Source: Ectocarpus siliculosus
Taxonomy: Eukaryota; Sar; Phaeophyceae; Ectocarpales; Ectocarpaceae
DNA length: 63,120 nucleotides
NCBI GenBank assembly: GCA_000310025.1
Contig: FN649740.1
Coordinates: 3,420,841-3,483,960, forward strand
Direction: 5' to 3'
In this document: positions 13,886-63,120 of the stretch, piece after piece
How the letters are laid out: each line of letters begins with the position of its first letter
Numbering within the stretch: the stretch's first letter is position 1
Notes under the pieces: model-generated
What the model was told of the DNA's origin: nothing
Databases searched by the model: none
The model's input: only the letters and a program-made list of their open reading frames with translations
Made by a program: the position numbers and the translations under genes

Positions 13886-16800
13886 CGTTGTTGTTGTTGT
13901 TTTCACATAAAAAACAGTTCCGGTCTCCGCTCAGTGCCTTCTAATGTCCGTACTGCTCCAACTGACGCGAACGTCTTTCCGTGGTCACAAGCCAACTGCC
14001 CTCAAAGGGGGGTACACGTTTCTGTTTATAACTTAAAACCGAAGCCCAGAAAATTCCTCCAAGGCGCGATTTCTTTCTTTTACCCAAACGAAAAAGAAAA
14101 AAAAAAAATGAAAACTAACCGGGATACAGACGATCGACCCCGGTCAAAAGGGATGAAAGAACGGTAGACCCTGAAAGACAGAAAAGAAAGCGATAAAGAC
14201 AAGGAAAAAAAAAAGGAAGGTAGACATGTCCCCTCCAACGCTCCAGTGAGCGGAGGAAAAACCGACTGTGTCCTGTTTCTTTTTTCACCATTTGTTCTAG
14301 CCTATACTCTATATATTCAGTTAACGCCCGCAATCAAGATTTTTTTTTTTAAAGAAATAGAGGCTCACTTTTCCACGAACAATATGAAAACAGGGTTAAG
14401 AAACATAGTTCAGTTTGGGTCACACAATAAGAAATGTCATGTCATGTCATGTCTCAATAAGAAAATATAAGAAACAGCGGCGACGGCTGCCCTACTACGT
14501 AAGAAACGAGGGGTCGCGGGGGAGTGTGTCGAATAAGAAACACCCCACAGCTCCTCCTAACTCTAGCCCTTTCCTCCCTCTCCCACTACCCCTCCCCCTC
14601 CCATAGATGGCGGGTGGTTTCCGTTGTTGGCATGTCAGCGTGCGGGTGAGACTATCATGCGGTGTTTATGCACTTTTTTAGTTTCAGCTCTCACTCATGA
14701 GGGGGGTACAGGACCTTGCAGCGACAGCGAGACGTTACCGCTGAATACATTTCGCTTCTAGGGACTGGCCTTGTGTACAGCCGTCGGTAGTGAGAATCGG
14801 GGTTGAGTACGGGAGGCAAGGAAAGGGGTGCAAATCGTTTGTTTATTTTGAACGTTGTGTAGTTAGTAAGCAAGCAGAGAAAATAAGAAATTGCCGATTT
14901 CAGAAATTCAGCAGGATTTGGCGGCACAAAAGAAAAGAAACTTGACATACGAAATTGAACGACATACGCTGAGTTTATAGCCCACAATAAGAATTCGAGG
15001 CTGGACCTGAAATATGTGTTTCTGAATTGCAGGCGCCAACTGTATGTACGCTGCATTGTTTTATTTGTATTTTATTGTTTTGTTGCCCCTTGTGGCCGCT
15101 GTCTTGGTTGTTTCAGGTTGCGGGCCCTCTCGCCGAGGTAGTGGCATCTCTCGAGAAGCGCGTGTCCGTCCTCGAGCCCGGCCGTCTGGACGTGCTGAGG
15201 CAGAAGGCGCAGCTCGCCAAGTCGGAGCTGGACGCCCTGGCCAAGTCTCGCTCTGCTCCCGCGTCGGGATCGGCTTCTTCTTCGTCATCTGCTCGTGGCA
15301 AGAAGGCGAGGAAGCTTGGTGGCGGCGTGTGTGCGTTTGCTGTGCTTCTTTTGGGGGATATATTGTGGGCCTCCTGCCGTACATGCGTATGGGCAGCAAC
15401 ACCGCGAAGTGCCCCGTGCTTTTCTTTTTTGAGATAACCGGTTTTCGCGTGGGTTGTTGTTGTTGTTGTTGTCTTCACATTAAAAACCGTTCCGATCTCT
15501 CTCTACCTGGGTAACGCTCCTCGAACCCCCGACTTTTGGGGGGCGAGGCGCTTCGCTCTCCGTGTGGAGTTTCTGTTGCACACCAATTCATGTGTCCACC
15601 CAGGCAAGCGCTCAATCCTAACGGCAAGGCGATATTACTAGCATATGCGTTCGCAGCGCTTCGAAGCGCTCTTCCACCGCGCTCATTATCGAGCCAAATA
15701 CACCATACTATTCATACATTGACGATATCCGAAACGTCATGTGTGGGTGCGGTCGCTTTGCATTTTGTTCATTGCAAGGTGGAAGAGGCGTTCGCCACCC
15801 TCGAGAACTGGCAGGGGATAGCCGCCGGCCTCCCCGCCCTGGTGGATCGCCTCCAAGCTCTGGAAACTCTGCACCTGGCCAGCGCGTCCTTCGCCCAGCG
15901 GCTGGAACAGGTGAAGACGGAAAATAGGCCGCTGTGCGGCGGGGGTTGCAAACGTCTGGCAAGCTTCCTTTTGTTGAAGTATCCTTTCATATGCTTCCGT
16001 TCCCCACGCCCGCGCGAGTCTGGTCCTCCCGGTGCAGTGCCTCACACGCGTGTGTCACTGCTGTGATTGCTCGCAATACTTGGGAGAAGCTGCTCTGGTG
16101 AATCTAGCCAGCGCGTTGCTCGTGCGGTCGCTGGATTGTCTTACGCTGGCCTTCAAGGGGCGGAAAGCGCGGGAGAAACCATGCCGAGCGTGCGCGCGTC
16201 GACGAGGCGGCGCTTGTTATTCTTGCGCCCACTAACTTTCGAGTGTGTGTTTCGTTCACCACCGCTGCGATTTCTCCCGTCGTTGAGCATTGGCTCCCCC
16301 GCGTGTTGGGTATGAAGTACAGAATCTCATCGTTCGAGGGAAGTTGTGTACCAAGTGAAGCAAGTTTGTATGTTGCTAATCTACCCGTGCCGATCGCACC
16401 CATTTGCTTTTAGTTTTCTCAAAACCCCGTGTGCGCGCATAACCGGCAGCGCCGTTTGAGACCCTCTCGAGTCTTGTGTCTATGCCGTGGCGGGGTTTCT
16501 TGACGCAGAATCGAATGGCGGGGCATTGCCGATTTCGCGTCGCAGATAGCCTCAGGCAACCATGCGGGTCCTCTTTTATCAGATTCTCGTTTCTCTTAAG
16601 GTGGTGTCATGGTCGTGATACGGGACAGTGCCCGGAACGAGGACGGTTTTTGTCATTAAGAATGCGGCCAAAGCAACGATGGCAATCGTTGCGTAGCCTA
16701 CTCAATCTGACATAGACGAGACTAGAGGATGTTGACTCGCGGGACAAAAGCCAATCGTCGCCCCGACTGTTCGCGCAGAAGACTTGAGCACCCCCAGAAC

Positions 16801-21628: not shown

Positions 21629-22672
21629 CAAACGGTATTGCCATTTTCGACTCCGATCTCGTAAAACATTTTCGCGACACACCTCGAATAATGCTTCGAA
21701 ACAACATCCTATGCGTTACTGCGGCTCTCAGCTATCGTGCAAGCCTTCGTTAGTCTCATAGTGACCGGTGGGTGCCGAGATATGGCCCAAAATGGCATGT
21801 CACGGCACCACCTCGGCGGTGTCGACAAAAAAATGCCTATGTACGACACCATCAATCACTTCAAAAGCACCCCCCCCATACGCACGATTACAATTGAGCT
21901 GTGTTCCCAGGCCCCCGGCCGTCGCACAAGCAAGCCGTCATTTCGCCGACACCAACATGTGGTGGTCGAGGTACGCCTAAGAATGTGGCCGCAGCACCAA
22001 CTCGGCGGCGTCGTACATCAGCCCATGTTTACGACACCGCGCGATTCTTTCCGAAATACCTCCAATGGGCACAAACCAATGTTCCTGTGTTTCCACGGCC
22101 CCCAGCTGTCGCGCAAGCCATCGTTCGGCCGAAACCAAAATGTGGTTTCCGAGATACGCTCGAGAATGCGGCCGCAGCACCACCTCGGCGGTGTCGTAAG
22201 TAAGGCATATTTACGGCACCGCGCGAAACTTCCGAGAACACATCCGATCGGCAGAAAACCAACTTTGTTGTGTCCCCACGGCCACCGGTTGTCGCGCAAG
22301 TCGTCACTCGGCCGAAACAAACTTGCGGATGCCGTTATGCATGCAGACCTGCATATCGCCTTCCTTAAGCCGGCTGAACTAGCGCGCAGGGTGGATCGGC
22401 CACATCATCCACAGAGAAGACTCTCGCCATCGCTGCATACAAATGAATGGGAACCTGCCACGTTGGCAAGCACGTTGGCAAGCAGTACCGTCGGCACTTT
22501 TTTGCCAGCGCACAACACCCGGAGGTCCATGGGCGTTCGTTGTGGAACGGCCCCGACCAACAAGACGTGAGCGTTAACCTCGGTGGTGGAAGGGGTGTGG
22601 GGCGCAACGAGGGCACCCCGTGTTTCGTCCACTGGGAGGCTCCTCGTCGAGTGAACCGATATTTCGTCGATT
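21629..22672 (+). repeat. Large inverted repeat, left arm (~1.04 kb)
   Basis: Near-identical complement of 24096-25135. Internally it is built from about four diverged units of ~185 bp, each with a CACGGCC.CCAGCTGTCGCG block, a GGCCGCAGCACCACCTCGGC block and a CCAATGGGCACAAACCAA block. Open frames of 277 aa here have no domain match and mirror the repeat. Confidence 0.92.
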
Positions 22673-23741
22673 TGGGAGTGGAAGTTGTGCCGAAATTCAG
22701 TGACATCCCAAAAGAAAATGTCCTGTGTTGTTGAAGCAGGTGAACTCCACGGACACACCATCTTCATGGAGTTCACTCGTTCATTCATTGATCGATAGGG
22801 CTTTCGGATTCCCAAGTTCGGGTGTGAAACCGAAACCGAACTCCTTTAAAGTATTCTGTTTCACTTTCGTAACCCTACGTGAGAACTTCACTCATTCGGT
22901 TGCCCATGACATTCATATCGAGAGCTGTCTTTGCCCAAAGCCCCGCTGTGAAACCCGAACTCAGACTCCGACACGCGTTTCCATCTGGTATGATCGAGTG
23001 TAAAGCATGACATCGCAGGGCGTGCTTGCTCTATAGATATGTTTGCAGAGGTTTGGAAAGGGTGACTTCACTAACCGTGGGAGGTGAAGCCACTGTCTTT
23101 TCCTACACTATAGGTGAAGAACATACGTTTGCACACGAAACTACACGTATCACAAAGACGCTCCTCGTCCCCAGTCCGTCGGGCAACCAAGGCCGAAACG
23201 GCAAACAGGAGCTCCTAGGAAACAGAGCGTACGTTTAAATTAAGCACCTCCCAACCCGCTCCTCCCCCCCCTCGGTGTTTGCCATCGGGATTGGGTTTTC
23301 GTCGCTTGGCAACGACGTTGTAAAACAAGCCAATTCACTTCGTGAACTCGCCAACCAGGTTACGGTTTTTTTTTTTTTTACCTCTGGTTTTGTTTTTGGC
23401 GGTAACCATAGTGGTGGTCGAGTAGATCATGTTGTGCGGGGTCTAGAAACCTCACTCCGCGCAAGGGGGATGATCGCACTACGTTGTGTTTAAATGGTCA
23501 AGCATCCTCGAGGCAGTTACACAGTGCTTACAACTGTCTCTGGAAGTGAAAGCACCAGAAAATAAATTAAGCCATACGCAGCTGTCATCCGTACGCAAGG
23601 AAGTAAGCACAAGATGCCGAACACCCTTAGCAGGATGCAGCTCACCCTTCATGCGACTCGCCGAATACCTCACGGCGGTTCACGCTTGTTAATGTGAGAG
23701 CCTGGTCCGGTGAGAACCCGGCATGCTCCGTCCCGGCTTTG
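22673..23741. other. Spacer of the large inverted repeat
   Basis: First part (to about 23020) is the continuation of the repeat unit also seen at 20480-20850. It then runs through unremarkable sequence into the dispersed repeat at 23417. No supported gene. Confidence 0.5.
23417..23741 (+). repeat. ~325-bp dispersed repeat, copy 1
   Basis: Nearly identical to 62798-63120: TCGAGTAGATCATGTTGTGC, the CTCGAGGCAGTTACACAGTG block, GAAAATAAATTAAG, and the end GAGAACCCGGC.TGCTCCGTC. Cut by the N gap at 23742. Confidence 0.93.
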
Positions 23742-24095: not shown

Positions 24096-25135
24096 ATGGA
24101 GGAAATATCGGTTCACTCGATGAGGAGCCTCCCAGTGGACGAAACACGGGGTGCCCTCGTTGCACCCCACACTCCTTCCACCACCGAGGTTAACGCTCAC
24201 GTCTTGTTGGTCGGGGCCGTTCCACAACGAACGCCCATGGACCTCCGGGTGTTGTGCGCTGGCAAAAAAGTGCCGACGGTACTGCTTGCCAACGTGCTTG
24301 CCAACGTGGCAGGTTCCCATTCATTTGTATGCAGCGATGGCGAGAGTCTTCTCTGTGGATGATGTGGCCGATCCACCCTGCGCGCTCGTTCAGCCGGCTT
24401 AAGGAAGGCGATATGCAGGTCTACATGCATAACGGCAACCGCAAGTTTGTTTCGGCCGAGTGACGACTTGCGCGACAACCGGTGGCCGTGGGGACACAAC
24501 AAAGTTGGTTTTCTGCCGATCGGATGTGTTCTCGGAAGTTCGCGCGGTGCCGTAAATATGCCTTACTTACGACACCGCCGAGGTGGTGCTGCGGCCGCAT
24601 TCTCGAGCGTATCTCGGAAACCACATTTTGGTTTCGGCCGAACGATGGCTTGCGCGACAGCTGGGGGCCGTGGAAACACAGGAACATTGGTTTGTGCCCA
24701 TTGGAGGTATTTCGGAAAGAATCGCGCGGTGTCGTAAACATGGGCTGATGTACGACGCCGCCGAGTTGGTGCTGCGGCCACATTCTTAGGCGTACCTCGA
24801 CCACCACATGTTGGTGTCGGCGAAATGACGGCTTGCTTGTGCGACGGCCGGGGGCCTGGGAACACAGCTCAATTGTAATCGTGCGTATGGGGGGGGTGCT
24901 TTTGAAGTGATTGACGGTGTCGGAGATAGGCATTTTTTTGTCGACACCGCCGAGGTGGTGCCGTGACATGCCATTTTGGGTCATATCTCGGCACCCACCG
25001 GTCACTATGAGACTAACGAGAGCTTGCACGACAGCTGAGAGCCGCAGGAACGCATAGGATGTTGTTTCGAAGCGTTATGAGGTGTGTCGCGAAAATGTTT
25101 TACGAGATTGGAGTCGAAAATGGCAATACCGTTTG
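24096..25135 (-). repeat. Large inverted repeat, right arm (~1.04 kb)
   Basis: Complement of 21629-22672 with a few substitutions and small indels. The match ends at GTTTG (25135), where flanking sequence diverges from the left arm's outer flank, so the outer boundary is sharp. Confidence 0.92.
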
Positions 25136-45109: not shown

Positions 45110-45440
45110 TGTTAGGATGATCCGAACTGGGGGTAGCTTGTCGCAAGACGTGTGTTGCATAGGGTGTCGGCAACTCGGCGAACTCGCGCCAAGGAGGAAA
45201 GATGTGCTGGGCTTGTTGTATAGACTTCTTCTTCACATGAAAAACATGTACTCACATGAACACATGAACGAACATGGACACATGGACACATGGACAGACA
45301 TGGACTGCACGCACGCGTGCACGCACCACCATGAGGGGGCGACGCAGTATACAACAGGGGTACCTTGCACACCCTGGAAATACATTCCACGTACCACACA
45401 ATCCTACAACCACTTGGCATTGCTACAAGTATATCTATCA
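45110..45440 (-). repeat. 3' LTR of the copia element
   Basis: 331 bp; on the plus strand it runs from TGTTAGGATGATCC to ATATCTATCA. By eye no difference from the other LTR. Contains a short ACATGGACAC tandem around 45265-45305. Confidence 0.95.
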
Positions 45441-48720: not shown

Positions 48721-48753
48721 CGGGATCCCGTGTGATATCACACGCTAGCGTGT
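48721..48753 (-). promoter_or_regulatory. Putative primer-binding region made of overlapping palindromes
   Basis: Directly inside the 5' LTR lie CGGGATCCCG (48721-48730), CGTGTGATATCACACG (48729-48744) and ACACGCTAGCGTGT (48740-48753), all perfect palindromes. No stretch resembles the usual copia complement of initiator Met tRNA. Confidence 0.5.
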
Positions 48754-49081
48754 TAGGATGATCCGAACTGGGGGTAGCTTGTCGCAAGACGTGTGTTGCA
48801 TAGGGTGTCGGCAACTCGGCGAACTCGCGCCAAGGAGGAAAGATGTGCTGGGCTTGTTGTATAGACTTCTTCTTCACATGAAAAACATGTACTCACATGA
48901 ACACATGAACGAACATGGACACATGGACACATGGACAGACATGGACTGCACGCACGCGTGCACGCACCACCATGAGGGGGCGACGCAGTATACAACAGGG
49001 GTACCTTGCACACCCTGGAAATACATTCCACGTACCACACAATCCTACAACCACTTGGCATTGCTACAAGTATATCTATCA
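48751..49081 (-). repeat. 5' LTR of the copia element
   Basis: 331 bp, apparently identical to 45110-45440. The TCTCA target duplication follows at 49082-49086. The element's promoter is expected here. Confidence 0.95.
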
Positions 49082-50103: not shown

Positions 50104-53100
50104 ATGGTTCGAAAGAAGGTGGATGCCCGCGTCCGGAGCTTGATCGAGAACGGGGTGAAGAGCAACCACCGAAGCACGTTTGTGCTCGTTGGTGACCATG
50201 GAAAGGATCAGGCAAGCCACCCACCGCACGCGGCACAGCAGACGCACCAATCCCTAAGCCGACCACACACACACACACATGCTACTGTCGACTGCTGCTG
50301 TGTCATGTGCTACACAACCAGCGGTTTCGACCTAGATGGGTTTTTCTTAGTCCTGTTGTGCTCTGCTGCTGTGGAGTTGTGGGGGACTGTCCCACTGGAT
50401 GCCTCGTGACCTACTTGTATCCCGTCGCAGACTTCGTGGCTGCCTGACAGCATGGGGGCTCTCTGTAGCTCCACCGGTCCACGCGGTGTCATGCCGTTAG
50501 GCTGGTAGGAGAGTAGCTCTTTGTGCAATCGTCGTCAACGTGGCTATCGGATATTCGACCCCAACGTGACGCCTACAGCCGCACAGCAGCAGTGTCGACC
50601 TACATACAGCACGCCGCCAGACCAATGCAACATGCGCGTTCAAGGTGTCTACTACTAGTACCAGTCCTCCTCGTCATCCTGCTGTACGACAGCCCATGCT
50701 CCAGGCACGATCACTCCTCCGACCGTGACAGCAGTGGCATTGAAGCAGAACTCTCAGGCACGTCGTGTCGTGGCCGTATATATGCATATGTACCCCTGTT
50801 TACAAGTAACTTGCGAAGAACACGCCCTGGCTGTCTCCTCTCCCACCCTTGCCCCTCGACTATGCGGGGTGCCGGGGTACGCGGAGAGGAGCGCCAAAGT
50901 TCTAGTGTGGGCGCTGTAGACGGGAGGACCAGGAGGGGACAATCGAAGGACGATGGCGCAGTTCAACAGCGAGCTTGCGCGGCGTCGATCTATGCCAAGT
51001 GGGAAGCGGTTACCAATAGTGGTACAATGTTACATAGCGGCATTAGATCGAGGTGCAGTAGTGCCACGCAGCGGTCGCTATGTATTCGGGGCGTGTTGTT
51101 AAGCAGGGGATTGCTAAACCGGGGCCCCCACATCTGTACCCGTACCTCACGCAGCCGCCTGTCAATATCTCGTTGTACTCTGCGTGTTTTGGTATCAACC
51201 GCCGAGCATGACGCATCCCGCACTCCTCCTTGAAGACACCGGCCTTGTTGTCTACGTATCGCCATGATTTCCACGTTGAAACTCGGCCAGTTGCTCACCC
51301 GTGCCGTCTCGTGCGGGTGCTGTGCGCTTGCCGCCGACATAATACCATCCCGCAAACCCTTTGCCATGCTGTGCCCTTGGCCCCAATATCGCACCATCAC
51401 AAAAACACTTTGCCGTCGGTGTTTGTTGTATTCTTCTCCCGCCCCCCTTGCAGCCTCAGCCGCCGATCCTTTCGTTTCACAGGAATCTCACCGCTCCCTT
51501 TAGGGTAGCTCGTTGTAGTTCAGATTGTTTAATTAGCCAGCTCTCGTACAGCCGTGCAGCAGGACGGCGGCAGGCGGGCACGAGAGATGGGCACCAGGGC
51601 TGCAGTACCCCTGATGCGTACATGTATGTCTATTTTTTTTTTTTACATTTTTCGTGTATCACGGCGACGGGGCCAGTGCTATCATCTTCGGCGTCGTGTT
51701 GCTAACTTCATCCCTTGTCCCCGGTGACTGCGGTTACCTCTCTTTGGTGCACGTATTACCCTTCAGGTGGTGAACCTCCACTACATTCTCTCCAAGGCGA
51801 GGGTGGCAAGCCGGCCCAGCGTCCTCTGGTGCTACAAGAAAGAGGTAGGGGATACAAATCGCACGTCTTTTTGTGGCGTGTCGTGCCTTGGTGGCCTGCA
51901 CCGCAGCAACCCTTTTGTCAGTATTCTGCCCGCCCAGGGACCACCGCTCCGATGCTGTCTGCCTGCGCCACCCCTCCCCTCTCCCCACCTCTTCTCTTGA
52001 CAGTTATGTAGCCTCGTGGTCCGCATGCGTTCTGTGTGCCCCTCAGCCAAGTTGTCTTTCGTTTGCCAACGTCTACCAAGCCCCCCCCCCCCCCCCCCAC
52101 TAATAAAACTTAAACACCTTTCAAATCCTCCCCNNNNNNNNNNNNNNNNNNNNNNNNNNNNNNNNNNNNNNNNNNNNNNNNNNNNNNNNNNNNNNNNNNN
52201 NNNNNNNNNNNNNNNNNNNNNNNNNNNNNNNNNCTGGCCCCCCCCCCCCCTTTCCCCCCCTTTTTTTTTGAAAAAATTATGTAACCTTGTGGTCCCCAGG
52301 GTTTTTGTGGCCCCCTCCGCCAAGTTTTTTTTTTTTTGCCAAATTTTACCAAGCCCCCCCCCCCCCCCCCCCCGCGAGTGCATGATTTGGTCGGGCATAC
52401 CCCCTCTCCGCGCTGTTCCCTCCTCCCTCTTCTCTGCATTTACCCCAAGTCACCCTCCCCCCTCCCGCGCGCCCAACCACGGGGCGGCATGCGTGTTCTT
52501 GTGTGTGCGATTTGGTTGCGTCCCCTGCGTCAGCTCGGGTTCTCGACGCACCGCAAGAAGAGGATGCGGCAGCTGAAGCGGCAGAAGAAGTCCGGACTCG
52601 CGTCCGCCGGGGGAGCGTCCGAGGACCCCTTCGAGCTCTTCGTCAACTCCACCAACATCAGGTCCGTCCGTCACTGGCTGACCCCTGCGCGTCACTTGTA
52701 CCGTATATATTTGTAACTGTTTTTTTTGTTTGTTTTATGAACAGGGGTTGTTGTTGTTGTTTGCCTTCTTCTCAATCTACCAAAGCTGTCGGTTTGTCAC
52801 GTATGATGCGGCCGGGCTTCTCCTTGGTGTACGCCTAGCCTGCCCGTTGCCTATTTGAGCGTCTTGAGAAGCGTTCAAGATGCGATAGATATATGGTAAG
52901 GCTGCTCCCCTCCGGACCCTCTGGTTCACCATCATCTGGAACAAGCCAGGTCGGTGGTTATATCCATGTATCTCTTTGCAGTATTTTTCAACGATGACGC
53001 TGTCGAGTTTTCGCGGTCGCTATATACATCTCTCTCGTACATTTGTGTGTGGTGACGTGCGTACCTTTTTTCGCTTTAGGTTTGTTTTACTGGAAGGATT

Positions 53101-56100
53101 TCTTTCTGTTTGCATCAAAACCGTTGATGTCATCGGTTTGCCCCGCATGACTTTTCTTTTATTTGTCCGGTGGTCGAACTGTGTCTCTGGGAAGGTGGTG
53201 CTACTACAAGGACACGGAAAGGGTGCTGGGACAGACGTTCGGTGTCTTGGTCCTGCAGGACTTCGAGGTGCAGTACTGAGCAGTAAGCCTGTTGGGTGTT
53301 GGTTGCTCCACGTACGCGTTTTGCGCGTGTGTGTGTATCGTGGCCAGTGTGTGTCGTCGCTATACCCGAGGTTGTTGCTGTACCTGGGATGCTGTTGCTG
53401 TACCTGGGATCCTGTTACTGTACCTGGGGTGCTGTTGCTGTACCTGAGATGCTGTTGCTGTTCCTGGGATGCTGTTGCTGTACCTGGGATGCTGTTGCCG
53501 CACCTGCGATGCGTTTGCTGTACCTGGGATGCTGTTGCTGTACCTGAGTTGCTGTTCTTCTTTCTTGCGCTGCTTTGGCTTTCGGCTGTGATGGGCCCTT
53601 GCCGCAATCGTGTGAAAACCAACCGCTGGCAGCACCTGGTGGCGTTTTGCGGTGCCTTGGGTCTTCGGAACGATAGTGCAGTGTCGCGCGTGGTGATGGT
53701 GATGGTAGCGGTGGTTTATCCTGCAACTCTATTGCATGGAATCGGGAGACGGGAAACAATTTGACAATTTCTTCTTGTGCATGTTTTTTTCTAGTTGCCT
53801 GAGTCGTGGTCGGTGGCACCCAACGTGCTGGTTAGGACCGTCGAGACTTAGTCCCTGACGATTCAATCGGCGGTGTTCCGTCCGCTCCGGGTTGTTGTTG
53901 TTGTTGTTGTTGCTGCTACTAATGCTGTTTTGTTTTGTTTTTTGACGCCCAACCTGCTGGCAAGGTGTATCGAGACCTCGTCCCTGGCGATTTTTTTCGG
54001 CGTTGTTGTTGTTGTTTTGCTGCTGCTGCTGCTGCTGCTGCTGCTGTATGTTCAGGCGTTGACGCCCAACCTGCTGGCAAGGACGATCGAGACGGTGGAA
54101 GGGGGCGGCCTCGTGATCCTGCTGCTCAAGACCGTCACCAGCCTCAAGCAGCTCTACGCCATGTCCATGGACGTGCACTCCAGGTAAGGACTGCCGAAGA
54201 GAGCTTTTTTTGCTCACGCCCCAACGACCCAGTTTGTCCCAGAGCAGCATGTCCTGGACAGGTTGGGACGGGGTGCGCGATGGGGAACGCATGTGGGTTT
54301 CTGGAAAGGAAGGAGGTCTTTGGGACACCTCGCTCGGACTAAGCAAGCATGATCTTATGCGCTGGCTCCTGTGGAGGCGAGGAGTCGTTTGGGGTTTCAG
54401 AGTCGGCCCAAAAAGAGGGGGGTGTTTTGTCGTGCTTTAGCTTGGACGTATCGAACGTCGTGACATGGCGGTAGGCGGCCATTAACATGGAGTAGCTGTA
54501 CCCCTTTTGGTAGTTGGCCTGTGACAACGGAAGGCGCCCGCGTCAGTTGGACCAGTACGGACATTAGAAGGGACTGAGCGGAGACCGGAACGGTTTTCAA
54601 TGTGAAGAAAGCAACAGCAAGCTGGCTTGTGGTAGGCTGGGTTTGCAGCAAGAGGACAGGCGAGTGTATTTATTGCGACACCGCCTCATGCTTTGTCCAC
54701 GCCGGTTCGACTGTTACGGTCTCTTTGAAGGGACAGGTATGTAGGTGCATTCCCCCCCGCCGTGCGTGTCTCTTTCCACGCGTATTTGACGCCGCCAGGA
54801 AGGAACGATTGCCATCGGCAATCGGTCAGTCCTGTGGGAGCAATGCTCCGTCCTCTTGAGGACGATTCTCCAATGGTGTAACGACTAGGACATGCAAAAA
54901 CATGAGTACCCCCGCCCTCCTCGTGTTGGTGGCTTTTCGCCACGCGGGTGACCCTCTCCTTTGTCTGCCTGGTACTAGATTTCGCACAGAGAGCTCCGGA
55001 GACGTGGTCGGCCGGTTCAACGAGCGCTTCATGCTCACCCTGGGCGACTGCAAGAGCTGCCTCGTGTGCGACGACGAGCTTAACGTGCTCCCCCTCTCGT
55101 CCCACGCGAGAGACATCGTGCCTCTTCCTCCCGTCGATGGTGAGAACGCCAGGTTTTTCGTACCCGCGCGGACGTTGAAAGCGCCGGGGGGGGGGTTGTA
55201 CCCGCGGTTCGACGGAAAAATTCCTCTTGCAATTTTGACCCCGTTTCTCTGTCTCTGCGGCCGTCGTTTGGAATTGTCTTGAGATTTTCACCCGTTTTTT
55301 TGTCTCTGCCCTTCCATGGAAAGCCTCTTCCGGCTGTGGCCCGTTCGTGTCCCTGCCCTTCGACGGATTTCTTGGGGTTTTGACTCGTCTCTCCTTCCCC
55401 TCCTTGGACATTGGGACACGAAAGAAAGCGGTGTCTGAGTCGGTGTCGATGCTGTGTTTTGTGCTCACCCCGTGACCTACACGGCATTCGGTGCACACAG
55501 CAGGTTTGCTTTGCTGCTTCAACGCTCTCGTTTCTGGCCTTTGACATGTTGATGAACCACGCTGCAACCATAAGTCATCTGTGGTGAATGTGTGTGTTGT
55601 TACTGCTTCTGCCGTTTGGGTCGTGCTTCATTCAATGTAAATCGTCATTCTCACTTTATGGCTGCGAGTCATGGGCATCTTTTCCGACGCCTTCGTGCCA
55701 CGTGCTGTGTCGCTTTCTTGGCCATCTGATGCCCCGTGCTCTTACGAACGTTCGCGTCACCGTCTTGGTCCGACTGTCGTTGATGGTGCTATTGCCGCTA
55801 CTGCCGTTGTTGTTGTTGTTGTTCAGAGGACGCAGAGACTACGGAGGCGAAGGAGCTGCGGGAGCTGAAAGAGTCGCTGGAGGGGACGCCTCCCGTGGGC
55901 CCCCTGGTAGCCGGTGCCAAGACGTTGGACCAGGTACGCTTGCCGTCGTTCTAGTCAAGGGGTTGTCGGGTGAGCGCAACTACGGACGGTAGGGGACATG
56001 ACGGAAGATACCATGCCCCCTTGGACCGATTTTCAAACCTCGATTACTCCAAGATATCACACCAGACGAGAGTGGCGGTGCCGAAAATGGCGACGTTTGG

Positions 56101-58538
56101 AACCGCCATCTCGTCGAGAGCTCTCCGATGACGTATCTTTTGATTTATAAACCATGTTCGTCGTGGAGTATACTAGTCGAGCTTTGAAACTCGGTTCCAG
56201 GGGGTGTGATATATAACGCCATGTCACCTACGGTAGTTGGCGACCGGGCGGGGCAAGGAGAGGGATTTGGTCAAATTTGGCGAAAATGAGAGTGTTGAAC
56301 CGACATCGTGGCTTGTGTCTACTCGCGGTGCTCCCTGCCCCCCCCCCTTTCGTGCTGTCTGTGTACCCCCCCTGCCTGGACCTGGTCCGTTGAAAACCCG
56401 GCGTGCTCCGCCCCTGCTTTGTATGGGATGCGAGGTCAATGGTCTAACGACTACGGCATGCACGACTAGTGTATGAGTACACACACACCTGCCTGGGCCA
56501 GTCCTGTGCGTTTCCATCTCCTCGCCCTCTTTTGTTCTGTTTGCTGCACCCCCTTGTGTGCTTGGTCCGCTGCTGTACGTTTGTTTTCCTCAGTTGATCC
56601 CCCTTCTCTAACGAGTGCCCCTCGTGTTGCCGTTGCTCCTGAACGGCTCTTGACCAGGCCCGAGCCCTGCTGACCTTCATGGAGGCAATTAGCGAGAAGA
56701 CTCTCAGGTCTACCGTCGCGCTCACTGCCTCTAGGTAAAGGTTTTTACTGCTGTTCCACTACCACGCGTTAGCTAGTGGTTGCTGCCTGACTTTGTACAT
56801 GCACCACTCACCCAGTGTTTGATACTCACCTGGAAGTGTTTTTGTACCACCTGACAACAAGATGATTACACGACACTTTCTGCGCGCCAACAAGTCAGCA
56901 CCGAACTCGGTCTCTGTCTTTTGTAACCCAAAGTTTCTCGACACCACTTCGGAAGTCTCGCTATGTGCATCACCAAGAACAAGTTAATAACAACTTTTTT
57001 TTTTACTGTCTGGTACGTACGTACTTGTCGGTATCGCGCAGGGGGCGAGGGAAGTCGGCGGCGATCGGGCTGTGCCTCGCGGGCGCGATCGCGTACGGCT
57101 ACAGCAACATCTTCGTCACCGCCCCTTCTCCGGAGAACCTGTCCACGGTCTTCGAGTTCGTTCTCAAGGGCTTCGACCTCCTTCACTTCAGGTTTGGCTC
57201 GCACCCTCTCTCTCTCTTTGTTGGCCCCTTGTCTTTGTCTTGGGTTAGGTTTAGGAACCGCGACCGTTCCATCCGTCGTTCCACGGTTTTTATGCATACC
57301 GTGGTATGTCCTTGTCTTATCTTAGGTTTGGCTTGGAACCGCGACCGTTCCATCCGTTATTTGCATACCATCGTATGTCCGTGTCTTATCTTAGGTTTGG
57401 CTTGGAACGCCGACCGTTCCATCCGTTATTTGCATGCAATAGTATGTCCTTGTCTTATCTTAGGTTTGGCTGGGAACCGCGACTGTTCCATACGTCTTTC
57501 CACGGTTATTTGCATAGGAACGGTGACCGTTCCATCATTCCATCCCCATAGCGCTTCTCGCCGTCTTCGGCCTCCTTCGCTTCGCGTTGGCTCTCTCCCT
57601 TTTTCCCTTGCCTAACTGCTGTACTATGTTTTTGTGTTTTGTGTTGTTCTCTCGTCGCCTTTTTGTTGTTGCCTTTTGGTACGCGCTTGTTGTGCAGCGA
57701 GCACCTGGACTACGAGGTGATCCAGAGCACCAACCCGGCTTTCAACCGCGCCGTGGTGCGCATCAACGTCTTCAAGGACCACCGCCAGACCATCCAGTAC
57801 ATCCAGCCGCACGACAGGTGCTGTTGCCCCCCCATAGCCGTCAGCAACTTCAGTGCAAACTAGTCGGCGTTGTTTTGGTATTGCGCGCGCGTGTTCCTAC
57901 ATTTTTTGTTAATTTTTTGTTTGTTTTGACGTCGGCTGTGTAGCGAGAACCCGTCCCGAGCGGTATTCGCCTTGTTCATTGCTTGCCGTGTCATCGTCGA
58001 ATACAACTCGTCTTTTTCTTTTTTTTTTGCGCACACCAATGGGCGGAAGCGTCTGTCACTTCCCATCTCTTCGTTTTCGGTCCTCTCCCAATTTATGCCA
58101 TGGAGTAAGTATGTTTTGTTGCTCTCTTCTCGACGACCTACGTACGTGTGCTGTAGCGAGAAGCTGTCCCACTGCGAGCTGCTGGCGGTAGACGAGGCAG
58201 CGGCGATACCCCTCCCGCTGGTCAAGAGCCTGCTGGGCCCCTACCTGGTGTTTCTGTCTTCGACCGTCAACGGCTACGAGGGGACCGGGAGGGCTCTCAG
58301 CCTCAAGCTCATCGACCAGCTTAGGAAGCAGCAAGGTGCGGGAGCGGGCAGTCTCCTGCTTGTTGTTGTCGTTGTTGCTGTTGGGGTCATCGGCCCGCTT
58401 AGGAAGAGGGAAGGTGCGGCGAAAGCAAACTTTCTGTTGTTGTTGTTGTTGTTGTTGTTGTTGGGGTGATGGACCAGCTCAGGAAGTAGAGGAGGTGCGG
58501 CAGGAGCGCTCTACCGTACATTGTTGTTAGCGTGGTTA

Positions 58539-58573
<35 letters not shown>

Positions 58574-61500
58574 TGTCATATCGTGATTGCGGCAAGGACA
58601 CCGCCGTCAATCCTGTTTTTCTGCCCAGTTTGAACGGTGGGGACTCGTCTTTGTTATATTTTCCTTGTTATACTTTGTATGGTCTGCTCCGAGGAGTTCA
58701 ATGTTAGATACCCCCGGTGAAACGCACCACAACCTTCTGTGCTGCTGCCCGCCCGTCTCGAGAACGAAAATTCACGTGCGTGTTTGTCTGTCTCGTTGTT
58801 ACTATTATACGTGCGGTGTGCCTTGGTTTCCGTCCGTCCACAGGCACGGCGGCGGCGCAAGCGGCGAGGATCGCGGCCTCGGAGATCCACGGGACGGGTA
58901 GGAAGAAGGGCAAGGAGAAGGTGCACGAGAACAGGTGGAAGGTGGCCGCCGACGCTGCCGCCAACGCCTCCAAGCACGGTGCGTGGTTGGAGTGCGAGAA
59001 TGCCCCGGTCCCCTCGTCGTCCCTACAACCTTACCTGTCCCAGCAGTTGCCCTGACGCCTCCAAGGACGGTGTGTACAGCGCGTGGGATACGAAGACGCC
59101 CCGATCGTCGACCCTAAACACGCTATCCCTTTTGCCTTGAGCGTCTCCAATCACGATGCGTATTTTACAGCGCATGGGATACGAAAACGTTCCCGGTTGT
59201 CGTCCCTTAAACCCTATCGATCAATCCCTTTAGACCCCGTGCCGCCTCCATGCACGGTGTGTACAGTGCGCGGGATACGAAGACGCTTCGCCTGAGGCTG
59301 TCGTTGCCGTTGGTGTTGCTGCTTGCTGGCGTCTGTGCGATGACTGCTTCGTGCATCTCCTCCTCCTCCTCCTCCTCCTCCTCGTTGTTGGTGTTGTTGT
59401 TGTTTCACACGTCCCTCGCGGCGTAAAACGAGAATTTCTGCCCGGAAACGTCAGAGCGGTCGTTTTGCCCTTGCCTCCCGCCCTTCGTGTGCGGCGGTCA
59501 TGTTGGCTCTCGGAGTGGCATGGCGCTCTCCTCTCGTTACCCGAGAGGAGAAGGCTACCTGCGATGGTCGGTAGCCTCCTTCTGTGCATGATTCTCGGTG
59601 CATACTCCGTGCCTGGATCGTCTCAAGGGGAACTAAACGACTTTGCGTTCGTGCCGCTGCTGACTTTCGTCCCCCCCCCCCCCCCGCTTAACCCCTTTGG
59701 GTCTAGCTCTTTTTTTTCTCGGCAAAAAAAAACGGGAATAGAAAGTGCGGGAGAGAGAGGCAGAAGTACAGCAAAAGAGACAGAATGTACTTCTGTAGAC
59801 GAACAGCTATCTCCACCCATAGGCCATGAGGGCAGACCGCGACAGGGCGGTGGGCACAGACAGGGTCATGGAAGGGTTGATGCGTGGTGGCGGTGCGGCC
59901 GGTATGGCAGGTTTGGCTTTTGCACCTCGAAACGATCAGTCGTCAAGCCGCCTAAACTACTCTATTTTCAGTATATTCAAATGATCAGTGAAAATGGTCA
60001 GTGAGAGGGCTTGTAAATCCATAACTGGTTCTTGCTTCTGTACTTCTCTGTCCCCTCTCCAATGTGAGCCCTGCCGGCTCACTACAGCTCCTGTGATTTT
60101 TCCACGATTCCCACAAGCACGCAGGCACACACCAGCACACACCTACCTTTGCATCAAGTGGTTCTCTAGGTTCGGGCGAGGGTATATGTGGGGTTTGATG
60201 GTATGTGTTGTTAGTGTATGTTGGACTCGTCTCTACTGCTGCTGCTGTGTAGCAACGATGACTGCTGGATCTTGGGAGTGTACGATTTTCAAATTTGGAG
60301 GACATGCATATCACGATATCCTGGCCTGCTTGGCCTTGAAATGCCCCTTTTCGCTGTCCTCCTGTCTTGCTTTAGTGGCTTCTTAGATTCGGGCGAGGGC
60401 ATGTATGTGGAGCTATTGATGTGTGTCTCTCTGAAAGGATATGGGGAGAGGTTCATGGTGGCATTCACAAATAGAGCAGTTTGCATTTTTCGAATTTTGG
60501 CCGTTCCAGGAACCTTGCAGTTACCCGCTGGCACTAACGTCTTTGGTTGGTAACCGGGTAGCGCGGTCGATGCGAATAATAAAGACACACCTACCTATGG
60601 ATCTGCCAACACCTGGCGTGGAGGGAGGGATACAGGGCGGCAACTCCATGGCATGCCACAACACCAGCGTTTGCAAATGATCGATCAATGATCTGTCAGG
60701 ACGCCTGTAGACCCAAAAGGGTTAAATTTGTTTCCGTTTCTTACCTTCCTCTTCTTCGTCTCCGACGGCCAACAGGTGGCGGAGGGGGGGGACGCACCCT
60801 GCGAGAGATTAACCTGGAGACCCCCATCCGTTACGGCGCCAACGACCCCGTCGAGGCCTGGCTCTACAGACTGCTCTGCCTTGACGCCAAGGTGGGTGGG
60901 TGGCAGTAGATAGCGTTCGCAGGGCTCTCCGTTTTTTTAGTATTAGATAAAAGCATGCAATCGGGGGGAGATTAGGGATAGGGTCTGCGTACCCCCCCTC
61001 CCTGTTTCTATTTCCAAAACTAACTTTGTTTCTCGCGAAGGTGGTCCGTAGGTGGGCGGGACGTTTTTGTTTTTGTTCGGCAGATGTTCATTTGTGCCCG
61101 AGAGGGAGGACACGCATGAAGAAGCTTCTCAGAAATTTATTTGCTTGTCAGGTCAGGGGAACGTCTTTGCTTCGATTTGGTCTGAGATAAGAGTGAATCT
61201 CTCCCCCCCCCGAAAAGCGCTACTGCCGGGCGATGTACGTCGCACCTGTATTGGGTTTTTTAATAACTAGAAATTTTCTCTCCGGTGGTTTTCTATTTTT
61301 TTTTCATCGTTTGGTATATGATGTCACGTGGAACCCCCTGGTTTTTATTATTTGTAGTTCCCTTTTTTGGTGATTTTGTTTTGTTTTTTTTCCTTATAAA
61401 TATTTGATGTCAGGTGGGTCACCACCGACTGGTCTGCGGAACCCCCGCCCCGAAGGACTGTGAGCTCTACTACGTCAACAAGGACGCCCTCTTCTCCTAC

Positions 61501-62186
61501 CACACCCTGTCGGAGGTGAGGTGATGTCGCCCGCGGCGGGCCATGGTCGACAGGCGTTGTTTGACGGTCGATGACGGCGGGGATTTTCACGACTCTCGAT
61601 AAGTCCGGTGTTGGGGTTGCCATCGCAAGCCGTCCATAGTTTTTGATATCGTTGTTTGACGATGTTTTACGATTATTTTTCGTGATACGCGACGAGTCCG
61701 GAGCTCGTGTAATCATCGCGGATCAGGCCTGGCAGCGTTGGTTGAACACGAGCGTGAGGAAGTTGGTTTGTGGTTCGCGATGTGTCCGTTGCTGAGGGCT
61801 GTGCGTTTCTTCCCACTTTTTTTGCATGTCCGTGCCACGATGTATTTGGAGGTGAAGTTGCCTGTGTTGCTGTGTGTATGTCAAATACACTACTGCATAT
61901 ATAGAAATATAATGGACAGTAGGGGCTTCAGCTGTTTTGCGTAACATCTACCTGACTTAGCCAGACAGATGGTATTGGGTCTGATGTTCTTGCCACGGAC
62001 TTTTATTTCGGATGACGATGCCTCTTTGAATCCACCGGTGCAATTGAACTACAATCCACACGTTCACGTGCTAACAAACTTCCTGCCGTGTGTGTTAGCT
62101 TGATGTCTCATCTATCTTTCTACCCGTCCGCCCGTCTGTGTGTATGTTTGTGTGTGTTTCGTGCATCGGCGGTGATCTCGCCTCTT

Positions 62187-62227
<41 letters not shown>

Positions 62228-63120
62228 CCTCTCTCTCCCCCTCTTTCTCTCGTCTCTCTCTGCGGCATGCTGTGCGTGTGTTTGTGTTTGTGGTTTGTGT
62301 TTTCGTGCATGTGTCGATGTCTCTACCTCGTTCCGCAGGGCTTCCTCCAGCGGGTGATGTCCCTCTACACCTCGGCACACTACAAGAACCAGCCCAACGA
62401 CCTGCAGATGCTCAGCGACGCTCCGGCTCACCACCTCTTCGTCCTGCTAGGCCCGAAGGCGATGGAGCAGGGTGCGAAGGGCAACCTTCCCGACGTGCTC
62501 GTCGTCGTTCAGGTAAAAACCGCTTGCTCGCTACGAATCCACGACTTTCTTTTTGTTTTTTTGTCTACAGTACCAGGAATATTTAGCCATCATTACATGC
62601 CGTTACCTTTGACACTTTTCACCGATTTTTTTTGCTGTCATGGCTGGCGCTCAATAGTACGGTACGCTCTTGGCCTGTGGGGGAACGCCACCAAATTTGT
62701 GGTTTCGACGTGCAGGTTCGTTCCTTCCTCGTGTAGGACGAAACGCGGCCCCACTTACCGGGGGACCCGCGAATCCAGCCTTTGCGTTGCTATTCAATCG
62801 AGTAGATCATGTTGTGCGGGGTCGAGAAACCTCACTCCGCGCAACGGGGGATGATCGCACCACGTTGTGTTGAAATGGTCAAGCTTCCTCGAGGCAGTTA
62901 CACAGTGCTTACAACTGTCTCTGGAAGTGAAAGCACCAGAAAATAAATTAAGTCATACGTAGCTGTCATCCGTACGCAAGGAAGTAAGCACAAGATGCCG
63001 AAAACCCTTAGCAGGATGCAGCTCACCCTTCATGCGACTCGCCAAATACCTCACGGCGCTTCGCGCTTGGTGATGTGAGAGCCTGGTCCGGTGAGAACCC
63101 GGCGTGCTCCGTCCCGGCTT
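50104..63120 (+). CDS. NAT10: RNA cytidine acetyltransferase NAT10/Kre33 (partial, 15 exons)
   Basis: Nucleolar enzyme making N4-acetylcytidine in 18S rRNA and tRNA with ATP; needed for small-subunit assembly. Exons: 50104-50211, 51767-51844, 52534-52661, 53195-53267, 54056-54183, 54979-55139, 55827-55933, 56658-56734, 57042-57191, 57698-57817, 58157-58335, 58844-58978, 60776-60891, 61414-61515, 62339-62512. All phases agree: 612 codons. Starts MVRKKVDARVRSLIENGVK as in orthologues. Then HRKKRMRQL, LTPNLLARTIETVEGGG, DVVGRFNERF, the P-loop RGRGKSAAIG, NIFVTAPSPEN, HLDYEVIQS, the Walker-B-like VDEAAAIPLPLVKSLLGPYL and GYEGTGRALSLKL, an Ala/Lys-rich linker, and NDLQMLSDAPAHHLF. The GNAT acetyltransferase and tRNA-binding parts lie beyond the window. 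Intron 1 uses a GC donor. Confidence 0.96.
50212..50217 (+). other. GC splice donor of NAT10 intron 1
   Basis: The conserved frame ends GGAAAGGATCAG and is followed by GCAAGC, matching the AG|GCAAGT consensus of GC-AG introns. No GT is available in phase nearby, and exon 2 continues in phase 0 with the conserved VVNLH segment. Confidence 0.8.
52134..52233. other. Assembly gap (100 N)
   Basis: One hundred N in NAT10 intron 2 between poly-C tracts; flanks are duplicate versions of one sequence. Confidence 1.
53371..53558. repeat. 20-bp minisatellite in NAT10 intron 4
   Basis: About nine units of GCTGTTGCTGTACCTGGGAT with single-base variants, starting 104 bp after the exon 4 donor. Confidence 0.95.
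53815..54055 (+). repeat. Two degenerate copies of the NAT10 exon 5 start within intron 4
   Basis: Blocks at about 53818-53851 (CCCAACGTGCTGGTTAGGAC...) and 53944-53977 (GACGCCCAACCTGCTGGCAA...) repeat the exon 5 sequence GACGCCCAACCTGCTGGCAA at 54061. Each copy is accompanied by a TTG/CTG run. Confidence 0.85.
54798..54950 (+). repeat. tRNA-like short interspersed repeat, copy 3
   Basis: GGAAGGAACGATTGCCATCG, CTGTGGGAGCAATGCTCCGT, the tRNA-5'-like CAATGGTGTAACGACTAGGA, CATGCAAAAACATGAG, then a C-rich end. In NAT10 intron 5, ending about 30 bp before exon 6. Confidence 0.6.
55986..56236. mobile_element. MITE-like element, GATTTTCAAA family, copy 3
   Basis: Ends ACGGTAGGGGACATGACG and, on the complement, ACCGTAGGTGACATGGCG. 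Extended subterminal complementarity runs through the GACCGATTTTCAAA / TTTGAAACTCGGTTCC blocks. Located in NAT10 intron 7. The most complete copy of the family in the window. Confidence 0.75.
56380..56490 (+). repeat. tRNA-like short interspersed repeat, copy 4 (variant)
   Basis: Begins with a CCTGG(A)CCTGGTCCG.TGA.AACCCGGCGTGCTCCG block, shared with the ends of the ~325-bp repeats at 23690 and 63070, and continues GAGGTCAATGGTCTAACGAC then TACGGCATG. The TGGTCTAACGACTACGG segment fits a tRNA A-box pattern. Confidence 0.5.
57235..57540. repeat. 69-bp tandem repeat at the start of NAT10 intron 9
   Basis: The block CTTAGGTTTGGCTTGGAACC recurs at 57321, 57390 and 57459 (69-bp spacing), with an earlier diverged unit at 57244. 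Each unit's TTAGGTTTGGCT resembles the true donor TTCAGGTTTGGCTCG at 57188-57202. Confidence 0.9.
58336..58510 (+). repeat. Degenerate copies of the NAT10 exon 11 end in intron 11
   Basis: The exon end CAGCTTAGGAAGCAGCAAGG plus TGCGG is echoed at about 58397 (CCGCTTAGGAAGAGGGAAGG TGCGG) and about 58471 (CAGCTCAGGAAGTAGAGGAGG TGCGG), with TTG runs between. Confidence 0.85.
58979..59275 (+). repeat. Degenerate copies of the NAT10 exon 12 end in intron 12
   Basis: The exon end GCCTCCAAGCACGGTGCG (58965) recurs as GCCTCCAAGGACGGTGTG (about 59055), TCTCCAATCACGATGCG (about 59147) and GCCTCCATGCACGGTGTG (about 59245). Units of roughly 90-100 bp also share GGGATACGAAGACGC. Confidence 0.88.
62190..62262. 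repeat. (TC)n microsatellite
   Basis: CT/TC dinucleotide tract in NAT10 intron 14, about 80 bp before exon 15. Confidence 0.95.
62798..63120 (+). repeat. ~325-bp dispersed repeat, copy 2 (cut by window end)
   Basis: Matches 23417-23741 with about a dozen differences. Located in the NAT10 intron after exon 15; no NAT10 coding sequence follows 62512 in the window. Confidence 0.93.

Follow-up and report, generated by a model that had tools for sequence, protein, structure and literature searches.

How does an intron come to hold copies of the edges of the exons that flank it? The question is raised by a NAT10/Kre33 RNA cytidine acetyltransferase gene of the brown alga Ectocarpus siliculosus, the first part of which lies on the + strand of the 63,120-nucleotide (nt) stretch of contig FN649740.1 analysed here (positions 3,420,841 to 3,483,960; hereafter the window, to which coordinates refer unless a locus is named). 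In introns 4, 9, 10, 11 and 12 of this gene (NAT10 below), sequence spanning a true splice site recurs inside the intron, in register with the edge. We consider it likely – at a probability of nearly four in five, judged from sequence – that short tandem duplications across existing exon–intron boundaries, with the spare copies decaying inside, lengthened these five introns. The features concerned are the following.

53813..53847, + strand: intron 4, the more distant copy of the exon-5 start (27/35 identical; lacks the acceptor AG)
53942..53976, + strand: intron 4, copy of the exon-5 start closer to the true edge (32/35; lacks the acceptor AG)
53848..54093, + strand: intron 4, tandem pair of units, 129 and 117 nt long, both closing with an exon-5-start segment (from spacing and alignment; unit limits inferred)
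54056..54093, + strand: intron 4, 3' edge, where exon 5 truly begins (the copies match it as far as GAGAC; the exon continues, conserved with human NAT10)
57160..57215, + strand: intron 9, 5' edge, the true exon-9 end and donor (gene model, alignment)
57245..57551, + strand: intron 9, tandem array whose units, each some 69 nt, meet at TTAG/GTTTGGCT joints (limits approximate)
57551..57605, + strand: intron 9, outer copy of the exon-9 end and intron start (40/52; donor degraded)
57929..57957, + strand: intron 10, repeated acceptor site with the beginning of exon 11 (AG kept; 213 nt upstream of the true edge, which is at 58157)
58308..58385, + strand: intron 11, true unit, made up of 28 nt at the end of exon 11 and the next 50 nt of intron (limits inferred)
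58386..58465, + strand: intron 11, first duplicate of the unit (with its donor, GTGCGG, at 58414)
58466..58515, + strand: intron 11, second duplicate of the unit (with its donor, GTGCGG, at 58495; right end inferred)
58959..59049, + strand: intron 12, true unit, the exon-12 end and intron start (alignment, repeat scan)
59050..59300, + strand: intron 12, three more units (successive starts 91, 91 and 96 nt apart; right end inferred)

In all five introns (for intron 9, in its outer copy) the repeat unit holds exon and intron sequence from across the true boundary. Introns 4, 11 and 12 each carry two to three extra copies, with an ungapped identity to the reference copy of 60-91%; introns 9 (outer copy) and 10 carry one each. 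At introns 11 and 12 the copies are of the end of the upstream exon: they lie near the donor and have donor sequence attached. The units of intron 11 are spaced 78 and 80 nt apart and both copies retain the donor GTGCGG, while intron 12 holds four copies including the true one, the donor positions of which read GT (true), GT, AT (59156) and GT. The last unit of intron 4 takes in the end of the intron and the opening 38 nt of exon 5. The intron-4 copies also resemble one another past GAGAC (14/21), where the exon differs: this would be expected if the copied unit stopped at that point. A 20-nt minisatellite (TGTTGCTGTACCTGGGATGC, 9.2 copies), also within intron 4 (53373-53556), is separate from the boundary copies.

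An earlier note on this DNA had described such copies in introns 4, 9, 11 and 12, within a range starting at 54056. That start lies too far downstream, the intron-4 copies being found at 53813-53847 and 53942-53976. Its statement that the splice dinucleotide is copied along with the edge holds for both copies in intron 11 and for two in intron 12 (all GT), but neither intron-4 copy has the AG, the second copy in intron 12 reads AT and the outer donor of intron 9 is degraded.

Intron 9 differs from what had been described, namely an exon edge repeated several times. The three- to four-fold repeat of 69 nt holds the intron side of the edge only (AG/GTTTGGCT); exon sequence is present in a single outer copy (57551-57605). 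Units of the array, which lies between the true edge and the outer copy, open with GTTTGGCT, like the true donor, and close with TTAG; the resulting joints resemble recursive splice sites. Small inverted repeats within the units (57326-57463) are predicted to fold into hairpins. Among the matches listed for the genome (492 contigs, 189.5 Mb), the intron-9 array and the intron-12 array each matched itself only, and these counts are lower bounds.

The gene model in which these edges are placed comprises 15 exons (50104-62512) and 14 introns, which are GT-AG throughout except for a GC donor in intron 1. With the outermost splice sites joined, the 612 codons form an intact frame without a stop. 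The gene extends beyond the end of the window, into sequence reading N. Two stretches of its protein, residues 1-447 and 486-612, can be aligned to human NAT10 (9j3c, 2.5e-244; 7mq8, 3.7e-244), the part left out being a linker in the region of introns 11 and 12; fungal Kre33 entries also match (match table only), and a search of viral contigs for NAT10 gave no match. At introns 4, 9 and 11 conservation with human NAT10 extends to the exon side of the edge, which makes the exon the original at these three edges and the intronic sequence the copy.

Matches between an exon edge and its intron may also arise by chance, in particular where introns are of low complexity and rich in GTT/GCT. Two tests and one control bear on this explanation. 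In an exon-only test, 36 exon bases at each of the 28 NAT10 edges were compared to the adjoining intron and to 300 dinucleotide shuffles of it. Four edges scored above every shuffle: the 3' edge of intron 4 (138, against a shuffle maximum of 74) and the 5' edges of introns 9 (91 against 89), 11 (91 against 68) and 12 (78 against 77). These are the same four introns that the earlier note had named. The next-best edges, the 3' edges of introns 8 (1/300) and 13 (2/300), were excluded from the cases. In a straddling test, 42-mers of 24 exon and 18 intron bases were compared to 1,000 shuffles, with Bonferroni correction over the 56 edges of NAT10, CysRS and DCTN2. Corrected P-values were 4e-4 for the 5' edge of intron 11, 7e-4 for the 5' edge of intron 9, 1.4e-3 for the 3' edge of intron 4 and 0.017 for the 3' edge of intron 10, an added case, absent from the earlier list. 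The 5' edge of intron 12, taken alone, reached 0.053 (3/1,000 shuffles); its four register-matched copies were found in a separate repeat scan. Five further edges with P<0.01 failed correction and were not counted as cases: the 3' edge of intron 13, the 5' edge of intron 3 and the 3' edge of intron 12 in NAT10, the 3' edge of intron 4 in CysRS and the 3' edge of intron 3 in DCTN2.

The strongest control compares each edge with introns other than its own. At P<0.01, 10/56 edges matched their own intron (eight of the ten being from NAT10), as against 23/1,512 comparisons with foreign introns; at P<0.001 the figures were 4/56 and 1/1,512. For the set as a whole this excess in the tail contradicts chance, as does the presence of several copies in register, and we regard chance as an extremely improbable source of the pattern. 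Single edges, the 3' edge of intron 10 for example, could still fall to it: the intron-4 and intron-11 units do contain GTT/GCT tracts (the matching exon parts are not of low complexity), and in the exon-only test the 5' edges of introns 12 and 9 exceeded the best shuffle only narrowly.

The earlier note had suggested that the introns were born, or else lengthened, by duplication of boundary segments. Under the AGGT (Rogers) route introns are born when an exonic segment containing AGGT is duplicated, and this is an established model (PMC4974935, PMC2891723). Birth by this route leaves a signature: the start of the intron is a copy of the start of the downstream exon, and its end a copy of the end of the upstream exon. 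Across 44 comparisons (28 in NAT10, 16 in CysRS) none was significant after correction, the lowest shuffle counts being those for the start of intron 6 (1/500) and the end of intron 7 (10/500). The copies, moreover, bring with them flanking intron sequence of the edge that was copied. Birth by AGGT duplication is thus very hard to sustain for these introns, and of the two proposals it is lengthening that fits the anatomy.

Lengthening would come about as follows. Short tandem duplications, with units of some 70-130 nt, would arise locally in NAT10. Where the unit spans a boundary, the gene would survive provided that the outermost site stays in use: the first donor at a 5' edge, the last acceptor at a 3' edge. 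The protein would remain unchanged, the spare exon edge would turn into intron, the intron would gain one unit, and the spare – presumably neutral – would decay. Repeated rounds would leave degenerate copies of exon edge and splice site inside introns 4, 9, 10, 11 and 12. The duplication lengthens the intron because it crosses an existing boundary and the outermost splice site still gives an intact frame. As to mutational source, replication slippage may be responsible, or fill-in synthesis at breaks, which yields small tandem duplications in mouse and human cells (PMC8355091).

Between the copy pairs compared, K80 ranges from 0.07 to 0.46, lowest among units of the intron-9 array; this spread suggests several events over time. 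Assembly error is an unlikely source of the copies, because they have diverged. The farthest copy is displaced from its true edge by 246 nt in intron 4, 394 in intron 9, 213 in intron 10, 159 in intron 11 and 278 in intron 12: by arithmetic from the coordinates, 1,290 of the 10,573 intron bases of NAT10.

Copies that retain a splice site could alternatively be working sites, kept because they yield isoforms. Scores were obtained from a donor matrix built from 27 sites, against a background of 869 intronic GTs (duplicates among them), the 99th percentile of which is 6.7. In intron 11 the duplicated donors scored 10.6 and 10.1, above that percentile; those of intron 12 scored 5.1, 1.2 and 5.1, and that of the intron-9 array 3.2. 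True donors scored 11.2 in intron 11, 6.6 in intron 12 and 5.9 in intron 9 (10.7, 5.1 and 3.2 when left out of training). Use of the first duplicate donor in intron 11 (58414) would add 78 nt, or 26 residues, in frame and with no stop; use of the acceptor copy in intron 10 would add 213 nt (71 residues), also in frame and stop-free. That acceptor copy, however, scores 3.4 against 6.2 for the true site, and falls under the 90th percentile (5.1) of 386 intronic AGs; the insert would land a few residues ahead of a stretch, DEAAAIPLPL, that is conserved in the alignment with human NAT10. Use of the second copy in intron 11, or of either intron-12 copy that has a GT, would bring in a stop, and sites in intron 9 would shift the frame. 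A role as alternative splice sites therefore appears very improbable.

The occurrence of boundary duplications elsewhere was assessed in 40 introns of four other genes or gene families: CysRS (8 introns) and DCTN2 (6) by shuffles, an SDA1-like gene (14, within locus L007) and CCT (12, counted where both flanking exon matches lie in the locus) by repeat scan only. The names CysRS, DCTN2 and SDA1 were assigned by reading translations, and 3/12 DCTN2 edges are on uncertain splice sites. The local-repeat scan took in 160 kb from four other contigs; gene context was viewed for 6/16 loci (L005, L007, L011, L014, L016 and L017), and of the six repeat families at each of L007 and L018 the five largest were covered. 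One clear boundary duplication was found, in the SDA1-like gene, where a 53-nt segment recurs 83 nt on (89% identical) and retains donor sequence. By repeat scan, the other 13 SDA1-like introns within L007 gave no countable case. Boundary duplications are thus present in 5/14 introns of NAT10 and in 1/40 elsewhere (Fisher test, 0.003), or in 3/14 and 1/40 at the level of the repeat scan alone (0.049). This agrees with the earlier remark that so many in one gene is unusual, though only after the fact, NAT10 having been picked for showing the pattern and methods differing between genes.

Several further candidates were set aside. In the last DCTN2 intron, 15870-15906 resembles 16099-16135 (70%; 2/300 shuffles, not significant over 28 edges). 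A five-copy array with GTGGTGAGA in an SDA1-like intron (L007:5880-6218) has no clear homology to an exon edge and was not counted. No gene was seen near the array at L011:409-991; a 78-nt duplication at L005:3973-4092 lies within an intron, off the edge (by eye); and an 82-nt duplication at L019 stops inside the intron, 37 nt short of the acceptor. Repeats at L014, L016 and L017, viewed by eye, showed no boundary. Repeats are also present at kinesin loci (L025-L027, outside the count of 40), where a 71% match over 31 nt in L027 was judged weak. In the SDA1-like gene, about 24 nt of an intron (L007:3912-3935) look, by eye, like the beginning of an exon that follows about 1.8 kb downstream in that gene.

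A number of results weigh against lengthening by boundary duplication as set out above. A rank test over all own and foreign P-values is not significant (0.18), the excess sitting in the tail – a result that chance matches would also predict. The 28 edges of CysRS and DCTN2 give two at P<0.01, the rate expected by chance (foreign rate 2%), and for the 12 CCT introns the repeat scan reported no boundary-spanning repeat. The donor score fails to separate true from duplicated donors: in intron 11 strength alone cannot tell them apart, because the duplicates score 10.6 and 10.1 and the true site 11.2, or 10.7 when left out of training. Use of the outermost sites is a presumption drawn from the intact frame. 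Finally, when the eight NAT10 duplication events listed are placed at random, four or more fall on edges with P=0.013, on a list drawn up after the fact. Barring selection bias, this last result suggests that edges are hit above the random rate.

Such targeting would be expected if transcribed splice boundaries, through nicks, R-loops or break repair, were hot for tandem duplication. NAT10 and SDA1 both act in ribosome biogenesis, and this common role, together with the position of four of the eight events and the concentration of cases in NAT10, speaks for such a bias. The gene and the event list were, however, picked after the fact, and CysRS and DCTN2 edges do not exceed chance. Repeats in the interior of NAT10 introns are about as common (105/836 interior 36-mers have a self-repeat, in a different test); with a complexity filter and a 500-nt limit, 81/719 intronic 36-mers have a local copy in NAT10, as against 12/356 in CysRS and 9/497 in DCTN2. 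Because the interior sequence of NAT10 introns is itself repeated, duplication at the edges looks like one outcome of a local process that is general, and dedicated targeting of edges seems to us improbable.

To our knowledge, intron growth by means other than transposon insertion is little documented. Introns of brown algae are remarkably long for genomes so compact; in Ectocarpus they have an autosomal median of 524 bp and make up about 46% of the genome (PMC12477816). Conceivably, boundary duplication and decay act in this lineage as a running one-way ratchet that lengthens introns, with the 1,290 nt of NAT10 as its recognisable part there and older rounds hidden by decay, and maybe concentrated in highly transcribed genes such as those of ribosome biogenesis; we offer this as speculation, and think it rather unlikely. 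Within NAT10, five boundary duplications of differing divergence form a series of ages. The comparison of own with foreign edge matches provides a countable signature, applicable to any annotated genome, and several near-equal donors in one intron make a natural test of how splicing chooses.

Other features of the window and of the loci viewed are recorded for completeness. GC donors replace GT in three genes: at 50212 (NAT10 intron 1), at 472 (minus strand) and at L007:2318 (by exon continuity or by eye). Two direct repeats of 331 bp, 100% identical (45110-45440 and 48751-49081; 3,641 bp start to start), look like a recently inserted long terminal repeat element. At 21629-22671 and 24096-25135 lie two inverted copies of some 1,040 bp, 98% identical, the arms of which contain 183-nt tandem repeats; the whole resembles a DNA transposon that has long terminal inverted repeats. 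A 323-bp repeat (96%) occurs between those arms (23418-23739) and beyond NAT10 exon 15 (62798-63120).

How do the NAT10 duplications compare with known systems? Introner-like elements are dispersed and multicopy. Both they and the NAT10 duplications add intron sequence; unlike introners or dispersed transposons, the intron-9 and intron-12 arrays, for which the genome was searched, recurred nowhere else among the matches listed. By title and abstract start, no brown-algal or stramenopile case of boundary duplication was found among the open-licence papers searched, and the relevant literature on mirages and minisatellite introns concerned lancelets only (PMC3087553, PMC3902484). Tandem duplication with splice signals in coding genes is shared with Rogers-model intron gain, described from Drosophila (PMC2891723), the birth signature of which was not found in NAT10. 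In potato RdRp a duplication crossing an intron–exon boundary gave rise to a new intron (PMC4974935): its unit, an intron 3' end plus an exon 5' end, is that of NAT10 introns 4 and 10, but potato gained an intron whereas the NAT10 copies remain within an existing one.

Closest in form are the amphioxus 'mirages', tandem repeats across exon–intron boundaries in the globins BflGb6 and BflGb9 and in Adh3, TnC and PGBD5 (PMC3087553, PMC3902484). As in NAT10, tandem units extend over 5' or 3' boundaries and lie inside the intron beside the true edge, many copies keep their splice dinucleotides, and the units (~10-160 bp) are of similar size. NAT10 copies are generally more diverged, at 60-93% as against 81-100% in BflGb6, although those of PGBD5 are also called imperfect. 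NAT10 differs, too, in that five introns of one gene are involved, in a different lineage, and in being known here from the sequence of one assembly. Boundary duplication as a kind is already known, from amphioxus and potato; its clustering at five borders of one gene is unusual.

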